From Acidobacteriota bacterium (lineage in GTDB: Bacteria > Acidobacteriota > Thermoanaerobaculia > UBA5066 > Gp7-AA6): a stretch of 64,000 bases of DNA. A model generated the notes under the pieces. The model was not told the DNA's origin, searched no databases, and worked only from the letters and a program-made list of their open reading frames with translations. The stretch lies in assembly GCA_020199905.1 (NCBI GenBank), contig JAIVJS010000013.1, positions 1 to 64,000 on the forward strand, in the 5' to 3' direction. The translations under genes were made by a program, and so were the position numbers. Below, piece after piece: positions 39,906-50,383 of this stretch (the first letter of the stretch is position 1; each line of letters begins with the position of its first letter).

Positions 39906-40122
39906 CGCCCGAGCCTTCGGTTGCGCGCCAGGACGAGCTCGATGAACTCGCGGACGGCGCCGCGTCCGCCCCGGTTCTTCAGGACCACGTCAGCGGAGCG
40001 GCGGGGAAGTCGTTTCCGTCGTCCGAGAGATAGATCCGGCCGTCTGTGAGAACGCCGTCGACGTCGAAGAAGAGCGCGCGGATGGGGAGGGTCCGATTGG
40101 CGCGGCCCGATCGGGAGCTCAC
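39874..40122 (-). pseudogene. kdsC: KdsC-like 3-deoxy-D-manno-octulosonate 8-phosphate phosphatase remnant (internal deletion and frameshift)
   Basis: N-term PIRALFFDVDGVLTDGRIYLSDDGND then, in another frame, C-term ADVVLKNRGGRGAVREFIELVLARN. Confidence 0.75.
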
Positions 40123-41075
40123 GCGGTGACTCCCGCGGAGAGAAGGTCGTGAAGGTGGACGGCGCCGGTGAGGCGGCCGTCTTCCACGACGAACAGCGAC
40201 GTGATGCGCGACGCTTCCATCGTGGCGAGCGCGGTGGAGGCGAACTCCTCGCCGCCGATGGTCCGCGGGCCGGGATGGAGGCAGGTCCCCGCGGTGCGCG
40301 AGAGCAGCGCGGCGTCCTTCTCCAGGAGACGGCGCAGGTCTCCGTCGGAGATCACCCCGAGCAGCCGGTCCTCCCGATCCACGACAGCGGTGATGCCCAT
40401 CATCTTGCGGGACATCTCGTGGATCGTCTCCGCCATCGGCGTCTCCGTCCCGACTCTGGGGACGCGGTCGCCCGTCCGCATCAGGTCCTTGATCTTCAGG
40501 AACCGTTTTCCGATGTCCCCGCCGGGATGGAGCGCGGCGAAGTCCTCCTCGCGGAAGCCCCGCATCTCGGAGAGCGCCATCGCGAGAGCGTCGCCGACTG
40601 CCAGCATCGCCGTCGTCGAAGCCGTCGGAGCGAGGTTCAACGGGCACGCCTCCCGCGACACGGTGATCGCCATCGCGATGTCCGCCGCCCGGGCCACCGA
40701 CGACCCGGGGGTGCCTGTCATGGCGATCGTCCTCACGTGGCGTGTGCGCGCGAACTCGAGGAGCCGCACGATCTCGGGAGTCTCGCCGGAATAGGAGAGG
40801 GCGAGAACGAAATCGCCGGCCACCAGCATGCCGAGGTCGCCGTGGCTCGCCTCCGCGGCGTGAAGGAAATACGCCGGGGTGCCCGTCGAGGCGAGCGTGG
40901 CGGCGATCTTCTGGCCGATCAGCCCCGATTTTCCGAGCCCGGTGACGCAGAGGCGGCCGGCCGACGCGGAGATCTCCTCGACGGCGCGCACGAACCCGGG
41001 ACCCAGGTTGCCGATCTGTTCGCGGACGGTATCGGCCTCTATCTGGAGAACCCGGCGCGCCGCTTCGAGGATCAC
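40119..41075 (-). CDS. kdsD: Arabinose-5-phosphate isomerase (KpsF/GutQ)
   Basis: GLGKSGLIGQKIAATLASTGTPAYFLHAAEASHGDLGM; two CBS domains. Confidence 0.94.
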   Translation of the reverse strand: MILEAARRVLQIEADTVREQIGNLGPGFVRAVEEISASAGRLCVTGLGKSGLIGQKIAATLASTGTPAYFLHAAEASHGDLGMLVAGDFVLALSYSGETPEIVRLLEFARTRHVRTIAMTGTPGSSVARAADIAMAITVSREACPLNLAPTASTTAMLAVGDALAMALSEMRGFREEDFAALHPGGDIGKRFLKIKDLMRTGDRVPRVGTETPMAETIHEMSRKMMGITAVVDREDRLLGVISDGDLRRLLEKDAALLSRTAGTCLHPGPRTIGGEEFASTALATMEASRITSLFVVEDGRLTGAVHLHDLLSAGVTA

Positions 41076-44561: not shown

Positions 44562-45313
44562 GCGCGTTTCCTTTCGGTCAGAGCGTCCCGATGGGAGGGC
44601 GCCGTCCGCTCGCCGGCGCGAATTCGCGACGAGAGGACGCGAAGCCGAAACAGCACCCCATCGGCCTCGATGCGGCGGGCGAGCGCCTCGCGCTGGGCCC
44701 CGGTCAGCCGGGAGGGTCCGTGCTCGACGTCGAGCAGCACCCGCTCCAGCTCGTCCAGGACTCCGGTGATGGCCGGCTCGCCGGCGCGCCGCGCGGACTG
44801 GCGGATGAGCCGGTTCGCCGGCAGAAGCTCCGTCAGGCGCGCCTGCTCGGCCGAGACGTCGAGCGCGCCGTCGGGGGCGTTCGAGAGCTCCAGGAGAACG
44901 GCCTCGGACCGCGCCAGGTGGCCTGAGAGCTCGGCGAAGAGAACCCGCTGCCGCAGAGCGGCGAGCTCCTCCGCCCCGGGCGGGCGGGGAGCGGCGAGAC
45001 GGCCCGCCAGGAACCCCGCGAGGATGAGCGCGGCGATCGCGGCGCCCACACCGAGCGGCCGTAGCCCGAACGGCCACGCCCATGCCTGCGCCCGCGGCGG
45101 AGGCTCCGTCAGCCGCGGCTGAAGGCGCGCCCAGACGTCGCGGCCGTAGCCCGGTCCACGCTCCGGAACAGGCGCCCCCCCGGCGGCGTGCAGGACCGCG
45201 CGGAGATCCGCCAGGCTCCCGGCGCACTCGGCGCACTCCGCCACGTGCGATCCGGTCTTGCGGTCCGCGTCCCAGTGGAAGCTCAGGAGGTCCTCGTCGG
45301 TGGGATGCGTCAT
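44558..45313 (-). CDS. Anti-sigma factor with zinc-finger-like N-terminus and one TM
   Basis: HVAECAECAGSLADL zf-HC2-like; TM segment GVGAAIAALILAGFLAG; overlaps sigma gene by 4 bp. Confidence 0.82.
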   Translation of the reverse strand: MTHPTDEDLLSFHWDADRKTGSHVAECAECAGSLADLRAVLHAAGGAPVPERGPGYGRDVWARLQPRLTEPPPRAQAWAWPFGLRPLGVGAAIAALILAGFLAGRLAAPRPPGAEELAALRQRVLFAELSGHLARSEAVLLELSNAPDGALDVSAEQARLTELLPANRLIRQSARRAGEPAITGVLDELERVLLDVEHGPSRLTGAQREALARRIEADGVLFRLRVLSSRIRAGERTAPSHRDALTERKRA

Positions 45314-45870
45314 CGGGCGGCGCTCCGAAGCGGGCCGAGGTCTTCCCGCAGCTTCGCGACGGCCCGGAAGACGCAGTTCTTGGCGGCGCCGGCGCGCACC
45401 CCGAGGATGCCGGCGACCTCGCCGATCGACCGGCCCTCGAAGTGACGCAGGGTGAAGGCGGCGCGCTCCATGGCGGAGAGACGGTCGAGGGAGGCCTGCA
45501 TCCGGCGGTCGATCTCGGATCCGTAGGCCGCCGCTTCCGGCCCCGAGCCCGCGTCGGGGACGAGATCGGCGTCCGGGGAGGAAGAGGCGGAGAACGCCGC
45601 GCCCCTGCGCCGCCGGAGGAGATCGACGGCGCAGTTGGCCGCAATCCGATGGAGCCACGTGGACACCTCGGAGGTCCCCTTGAACCGCTCGAGCCCTCGA
45701 TACGCCTTCAGGAAGGTCTCCTGCACCACGTCCTCCGCGTCTTCTTCGTTTCCCGTCATCCGGAAGGCCAGCCCGAAAACGTGCCGGCTGTGCGTTTCGA
45801 CGATCTCCCGGAAGGCGTCCCGGTCGCCGGCCTTCGCTCGGAGGACGGCCGCTCGATCGATCCCTTCCAT
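45310..45870 (-). CDS. ECF RNA polymerase sigma factor
   Basis: AFRMTGNEEDAEDVVQETFLKAYRGLERF; STWLHRIAANCAVDLLRRRR; region 4 present. Confidence 0.94.
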   Translation of the reverse strand: MEGIDRAAVLRAKAGDRDAFREIVETHSRHVFGLAFRMTGNEEDAEDVVQETFLKAYRGLERFKGTSEVSTWLHRIAANCAVDLLRRRRGAAFSASSSPDADLVPDAGSGPEAAAYGSEIDRRMQASLDRLSAMERAAFTLRHFEGRSIGEVAGILGVRAGAAKNCVFRAVAKLREDLGPLRSAAR

Positions 45871-46091: not shown

Positions 46092-47066
46092 GTGCACCCG
46101 CTGGTCGAGACCGTCCTCAAATACGGTCTGCCTTTCGTCTTTGTGAACGTGCTGCTCGAACAGATCGGGCTGCCGATTCCGGCGGTGCCTACCCTGATCG
46201 TCGCCGGCGCCCTGACGGTCGAGCACGACATCCGGGTGGCCCATGTTCTTCTCGTTGCGCTCGTCGCCTGCCTGATCGCGGATTCGATCTGGTACGCGCT
46301 GGGGCACCGCCTGGGTCTCGGAATCCTGAAGACCCTGTGCCGGATCTCGCTCTCTCCGGATTCCTGCGTCCGGCAGACGTCGAGCGCGTTCGAGCGGTGG
46401 GGAATGCCCTCGCTGCTCGTCGCCAAGTTCATCCCGGGCTTCTCGACGGTCGCGCCGCCGCTCGCCGGGGCGATCGGGCGGCGGCCGCTCGCTTTTCTCT
46501 TCTACGACGCGGGCGGGTCCCTGATCTGGGCGGGCGGAGCCGTTCTTCTCGGCCGCGTCTTCCACCGAGCGGTCGAGCGGGCTCTCGACTTTCTGGCCGG
46601 CATCGGAACGGGCGCCTTTGCGCTGCTCGGCACGGCGCTCTTCCTGTTCATCCTGCTCAAATGGTGGCAGCGCCGCCGGTTTTACCGGGCCCTGCGGATG
46701 GCGCGGATTACCGTCGAGGAGCTCCAACCCCTGCTCTCCGGGAAGCTGGCTCCCGTCGTTCTGGACGTGCGCACGCAGGGTGCCCGCATGGCAGATCCCC
46801 GGCGTATTCCGGGCGCGCGGACGCTCGAATACGGCGAGATCGAGGCGAAGGCCTCGTCTCTGCCCGGAGACCGGCAGATCGTTCTCTACTGCACGTGACC
46901 GAACGAAGCCTCGGCGGCCCGTGTGGCCCGCGCGCTGATCGACAGAGGATTCAAGAACGTACGGCCCCTCGCGGGAGGATTCGAAGCGTGGGTCGCGGCC
47001 GGTTTTCCCATCGAGGAGTTCTCAGAGGAGGAGCGCCCCGGGAAACTGTCGTCGGGGCTGTCCTGA
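46092..47066 (+). CDS. DedA-family membrane protein fused to rhodanese domain; in-frame TGA at 46896 (candidate selenocysteine)
   Basis: DedA motif KFIPGFSTVAPPLAG; rhodanese IVLYCT-[TGA]-PNEASAARVARALIDRGFKNVRPLAGGFEAWVAAGFPIEEF continues in the same frame to 47066. Confidence 0.78.
46912..46934 (+). promoter_or_regulatory. Candidate bacterial SECIS-like hairpin downstream of TGA
   Basis: cggcggcc-cgtgt-ggcccgcgcg: about 8-bp stem with two single-nt bulges; apical loop 22-26 nt after the TGA with a G in the first two loop positions. Confidence 0.4.

Positions 47067-47124: not shown

Positions 47125-50383
<3,259 letters not shown>

Follow-up and report, generated by a model that had tools for sequence, protein, structure and literature searches.

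Described selenocysteine rhodaneses and DedA proteins

The selenocysteine (Sec) position discussed here has a precedent in NF041203 (rhodanese_LYCAU, 'rhodanese-related (seleno)protein'), the model of a stand-alone domain of about 126 amino acids, listed as rhodanese form 3, CxU (PMC13188914 Table 1). TsoB (NF045694, a rhodanese/DsbD fusion-like selenoprotein) likewise joins a Sec rhodanese to a membrane domain, but this membrane domain is of a different kind and the protein has two Sec residues in a UxxxxU arrangement (PMC13188914). Rhodanese fusions of DedA proteins are also known, and their connection has been described as unclear (PMC10127716). Cysteine (Cys) versions of this fusion are found in Burkholderiales, Pseudomonas and other bacteria under the name 'DedA family protein/thiosulfate sulfurtransferase GlpE'; PA1209, one of the six DedA proteins of P. 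aeruginosa, is a DedA-rhodanese (PMC12893004). No DedA or VTT selenoprotein is included in the 119-family inventory of 2026 (PMC13188914), and our searches of open-access full texts found no paper describing one.

We analyzed a stretch of 64,000 nucleotides from an Acidobacteriota genome (the window), which encodes a DedA-rhodanese with an in-frame TGA. Its product shares the CxU arrangement with NF041203, with Sec two residues past the conserved Cys, and adds a VTT/DedA membrane domain. NF041203 is the best NCBIfam match of the window protein at 86.7 bits, which does not reach the cut-off of 115, and the score against the TsoB model is only 23 bits. The Cys fusions of the PA1209 type have the same architecture as the window protein and are about 39-53% identical to it along most of the length; they differ in having Cys in place of Sec, in lacking a conserved SECIS-like hairpin and, mostly, in lacking selB. 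In a phylogenetic tree, a weakly supported branch separates all fusions from the free-standing CxU forms. Sec at the CxU position of a rhodanese is already known from the free-standing proteins of NF041203; what is new is its combination with a DedA membrane domain in one protein.

Free-standing CxU relatives are also present in Acidobacteriota. We observed CxU rhodaneses with an in-frame TGA and apparently no DedA part at eleven loci of this phylum (L187, L190-L193, L195-L197, L204, L212 and L214); some of them are arranged in tandem, as at L197, which has two. Since most of them score below the NF041203 cut-off, which only L187 passes, this model may miss much of the diversity of its own family.

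A DedA-rhodanese gene interrupted by TGA

The gene occupies positions 46092..47066 of the plus strand, as initially annotated, and the frame and sequence are likewise as described there. It starts with GTG at 46092, the coding frame extends to 47063 and the final stop is a TGA at 47064-47066. A single in-frame TGA is found at 46896-46898, in the context YCT-U-PNE. When this codon is read as Sec the product is 324 amino acids long with Sec at residue 269; translation with table 11 yields a 268-residue open reading frame that ends at this codon. The read-through protein exceeds the Pfam cut-offs for two domains. The VTT/DedA membrane domain (PF09335, residues 29-155, 46176..46556) scores 44.1 bits against a gathering score of 33.9, which places the protein in the DedA/VTT superfamily, and the rhodanese domain (PF00581, residues 208-302, 46713..46997) scores 45.8 bits and contains the active-site loop YCTUPNE. 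The linker between them, KWWQRRRFYRALRMAR, is positively charged.

The TGA had been placed exactly where a conserved Cys is expected. Relatives indeed have TGC or TGT there, but the residue is the second Cys of a CxC motif, two codons past Cys267 (TGC, 46890..46892), which is the usual catalytic rhodanese Cys and is retained in the window protein. Cys267 is invariant in alignments of 25 sequences, and the protein has the catalytic Cys that would be needed in a thiosulfate sulfurtransferase.

A gene for a sigma-70-type factor (45310-45870) lies on one side of the DedA-rhodanese gene and a DAHP-synthase-family gene adjoining that for CTP synthase on the other, both on the opposite strand. The minus-strand segments 47125-49775 and 40119-41075, which encode the DAHP-synthase-family protein beside CTP synthase and a SIS-CBS protein, resemble a KDO-biosynthesis cluster. 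Comparison of genomic neighborhoods among relatives revealed no conserved neighbor of the DedA-rhodanese gene beyond the gene itself.

Exchange of selenocysteine and cysteine among homologs

Homologs at E <= 1e-25 are present in 71 of 395 Acidobacteriota genomes. Homologous loci were extracted from the scan of this phylum and from a scan of named genomes (mainly Burkholderiales, plus two named Acidobacteria metagenome-assembled genomes, MAGs). An alignment of orthologs had been proposed as a check for Cys/Sec exchange, and such exchange was found: at exactly the same codon 35 loci have TGA and 93 have TGC or TGT. The gene with TGA at this codon is found in all three genomes analyzed from the same family. 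The identity of the Sec forms falls as low as about 33%, and those with YCTUAREATS-type loops form a clade of their own. One Sec form is a betaproteobacterial MAG locus (L095) with the loop YCSUPNE and with selB in its genome; a search of 399 genomes of that phylum at E <= 1e-60, this MAG included, found no further TGA forms. Two genomes, G190 (L149/L154) and G258 (L150/L157), each have two distinct Sec DedA-rhodanese paralogs.

The sequence beyond the TGA is conserved as well. Identity to eight relatives is 51-69% after the TGA and 51-63% before it, and pN/pS against the same relatives is similar on both sides, which indicates that selection preserves the protein sequence of the rhodanese part. 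The 55 homologous codons that had been noted after the TGA match, on their own, the C-terminus of the rhodanese domain (E = 5e-4, slightly short of the Pfam cut-off). A Cys aligned with the TGA and conservation downstream of it, two properties expected of a bacterial selenoprotein, are thus both found.

These data bear on the simplest alternative, namely that the TGA is an ordinary stop, produced by nonsense mutation, truncation or sequencing error, which leaves a 268-residue DedA protein and a broken rhodanese. This is how table 11 reads the gene. However, the same TGA is present in 35 loci from many genera and one other phylum, conservation after it equals conservation before it, the TGA form co-occurs with selB, and a hairpin conserved among the TGA forms follows it (both described below), and we consider an ordinary stop highly improbable. 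A base-calling error in particular is very unlikely, because 34 loci outside this genome have the same TGA. Its recurrence in relatives led us to reject sequencing error, nonsense mutation and code reassignment alike.

A conserved hairpin downstream of the TGA

A bacterial SECIS-like hairpin was located at 46913..46932 on the plus strand, with an inner stem 46917-46919/46925-46927 that is extended outwards. Its loop, CGTGT at 46920-46924, lies 22-26 nt past the TGA and has G at its second position; the hairpin position, loop distance and early loop G given in the initial annotation are all recovered. The same annotation allowed that the hairpin could be chance in GC-rich DNA. This caution is justified for the single sequence, in which the hairpin energy is unexceptional against synonymous shuffles (z = 0.0), but not for the family: the inner three base pairs around a five-nucleotide loop whose second base is G, the structure expected of a bacterial selenoprotein gene, are found in 35 of 35 Sec loci. 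In the Cys loci the inner three pairs are formed in 41 of 93, with mixed loops, and the hairpin is mostly absent from these relatives. The evidence for the hairpin therefore lies in the comparison, because that of the window is itself unremarkable in energy.

Both sequence and structure are constrained among the Sec forms. Ala at +7 is encoded by GCC in 33 of 35 loci, and Arg at +8 by CGT or CGG in 33 of 34 and never by CGC. The hairpin is conserved and covarying in the 34 aligned Sec loci, from which RNAalifold returned the same structure. Compensatory changes are observed at pair 21-33, which occurs as C-G, G-C, G-U and U-A, and at pair 24-30, which is reversed to G-C in the sequence from the betaproteobacterium. 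None of 500 shuffles, which ignore kinship among the sequences, attained the covariation score of the hairpin.

Selenocysteine machinery and its association with the TGA form

The absence of Sec machinery from the genome had been named as grounds for abandoning the selenoprotein reading. The genome (3.92 Mb in 115 contigs, 92.5% complete) contains selA, selB, selC and selD, and its tRNA-Sec (selC) has a UCA anticodon and scores 67 bits. The selD gene has an in-frame TGA of its own, in the context SAG-U-ACKIG (L018, G000:C53:23538-24503, minus strand), and is itself a probable selenoprotein gene; this makes it very probable that Sec is used in further proteins of the organism.

Across Acidobacteriota, SelB scores above the cut-off in 31 of 31 genomes with the TGA form (that of the window and 30 others), and selB is found in 5 of 41 genomes that encode a TGA-free homolog (Fisher p = 3e-15, kinship ignored). 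The association is phylogenetically clumped: there are only two supported independent contrasts, in the expected direction but too few for the association to count as significant once kinship is corrected for. On the gene tree about five Sec/Cys changes are needed, at least two of which are forced by supported branches. Two genomes, G045 (L162) and G070 (L184), encode Cys forms with the loop YCNCPRE and keep selB; these probably represent a change from Sec to Cys without loss of the machinery.

The machinery also bears on whether the UGA could be read through with an amino acid other than Sec, such as Cys or Trp. Insertion of Cys would also work at this position, as the non-Sec homologs have Cys. 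Against this stand the canonical tRNA-Sec with its UCA anticodon, the presence of selA, selB and selD in the genome and the SECIS-like hairpin that accompanies the TGA. Moreover, the DedA-rhodanese gene itself ends with TGA, which rules out a general reassignment of this codon. Insertion of another amino acid thus has very little to recommend it.

Taken together, the machinery, the exchange at the exact codon, the conservation after the TGA, the hairpin and the co-occurrence with selB support the initial annotation of the gene as a candidate selenoprotein, and from these sequence comparisons we conclude with high confidence that the UGA at 46896-46898 is decoded as Sec. SelB and tRNA-Sec(UCA) would decode this codon under the direction of the hairpin 3' of it, and the product would be a 324-residue membrane selenoprotein.

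A cysteine pair in the membrane domain and a possible function

The membrane domain contains a family-specific Cys pair, C83 (46338-46340) and C92 (46365-46367), in the segment LCRISLSPDSCV (46338..46367). Both residues, like Cys267 and the Sec/Cys at residue 269, are invariant in the 25-sequence alignments of the fusions. Further Sec and Cys homologs that were inspected also have the pair, with the exception of L160, whose extracted stretch starts past the first Cys, and the pair is absent from seven stand-alone DedA relatives encoded in the same genomes. In the predicted fold of a Cys ortholog (mean pLDDT 86), secondary structure assignment puts both Cys close to the termini of two helices that a short loop connects. 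The best 50 matches in a fold search were to rhodanese domains only, with no DedA structure among them.

It seems possible that the protein operates as a membrane-anchored thiol/selenol (persulfide) relay, and not as a plain sulfurtransferase or an undecaprenyl-phosphate (UndP) flippase; we favor this reading tentatively, from sequence features and analogy. The N-terminal VTT/DedA membrane domain would be followed by the linker and by a probably cytosolic rhodanese with the loop C267-T-U269-P-N-E. C267 would take up sulfane sulfur or become oxidized, and Sec269 would act as the resolving nucleophile, with a C-x-U selenenylsulfide replacing C-x-C. The step at Sec269 would release sulfide or hand on electrons, and C83 and C92 would be the likely redox partner of the C-x-U rhodanese.

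Alternatively, the protein may be a membrane-anchored Sec-dependent sulfurtransferase or may handle selenium or selenite. The rhodanese fold is consistent with the former. Typical thiosulfate sulfurtransferases carry a CRxGxR-type loop motif, which the loop CTUPNE does not have. With regard to selenite, C. metallidurans CH34 carries a DedA-rhodanese, and a published link between a DedA protein and selenite resistance is cited in the reference list of PMC10127716. Many of the fusions, however, have Cys and are encoded in genomes that lack selB, and selenium is therefore not the general substrate. We regard functions of this kind as conceivable but rather unlikely.

The VTT domain assigned by Pfam raises the further question of whether the protein is a flippase of the COG0586 type that is regulated by a redox-sensing Sec-rhodanese domain, and rhodanese-fused members of COG0586 have been reported (PMC10127716). 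The fusions share the VTT fold with the DedA/UptA flippases and, in most members, the Glu of the first reentrant helix; they differ from them by the extra Cys pair and the rhodanese domain. Glu39, Asp51, Arg130 and Arg136 are essential for flipping of UndP (PMC10127716). Judged from a sequence alignment that includes stand-alone DedA proteins, Glu39 is mostly kept in the fusions, Asp51 is replaced by V, Y, I or F, Arg130 is Lys throughout the alignment and Arg136 is replaced by A, S, N or G, and the full set of two acidic and two basic essential residues is therefore not present. In addition, a fosmidomycin screen in P. aeruginosa pointed to PA4029, the only one of the six DedA proteins that mattered for sensitivity; no effect followed from deletion of the others, among which is the DedA-rhodanese PA1209 (PMC12893004). 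On the basis of these residues the DedA-rhodanese is probably not a canonical UndP flippase, and a flippase regulated by its rhodanese domain is distinctly unlikely.

Returning to the proposed relay, a broader and more doubtful reading is that DedA-rhodaneses constitute an unrecognized class of transmembrane thiol/selenol relays, in which the Cys pair of the VTT fold would exchange electrons or persulfide sulfur with the cytosolic C-x-U or C-x-C rhodanese, and that Acidobacteriota ancestrally had the Sec form, with several later changes from Sec to Cys accompanying loss of the machinery.

Implications

The fusion adds a new membrane-protein architecture, recurrent across Acidobacteriota, to the catalogue of bacterial selenoproteins, and standard annotation would truncate such genes at the UGA. 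Natural Sec/Cys pairs, among them the betaproteobacterial Sec form and the Cys forms of Acidobacteriota genomes that have or lack selB, allow the benefit of Sec at the rhodanese loop to be tested directly. Finally, the C83/C92 pair provides a concrete lead on why DedA and rhodanese domains are fused, a connection that has been considered unclear (PMC10127716).
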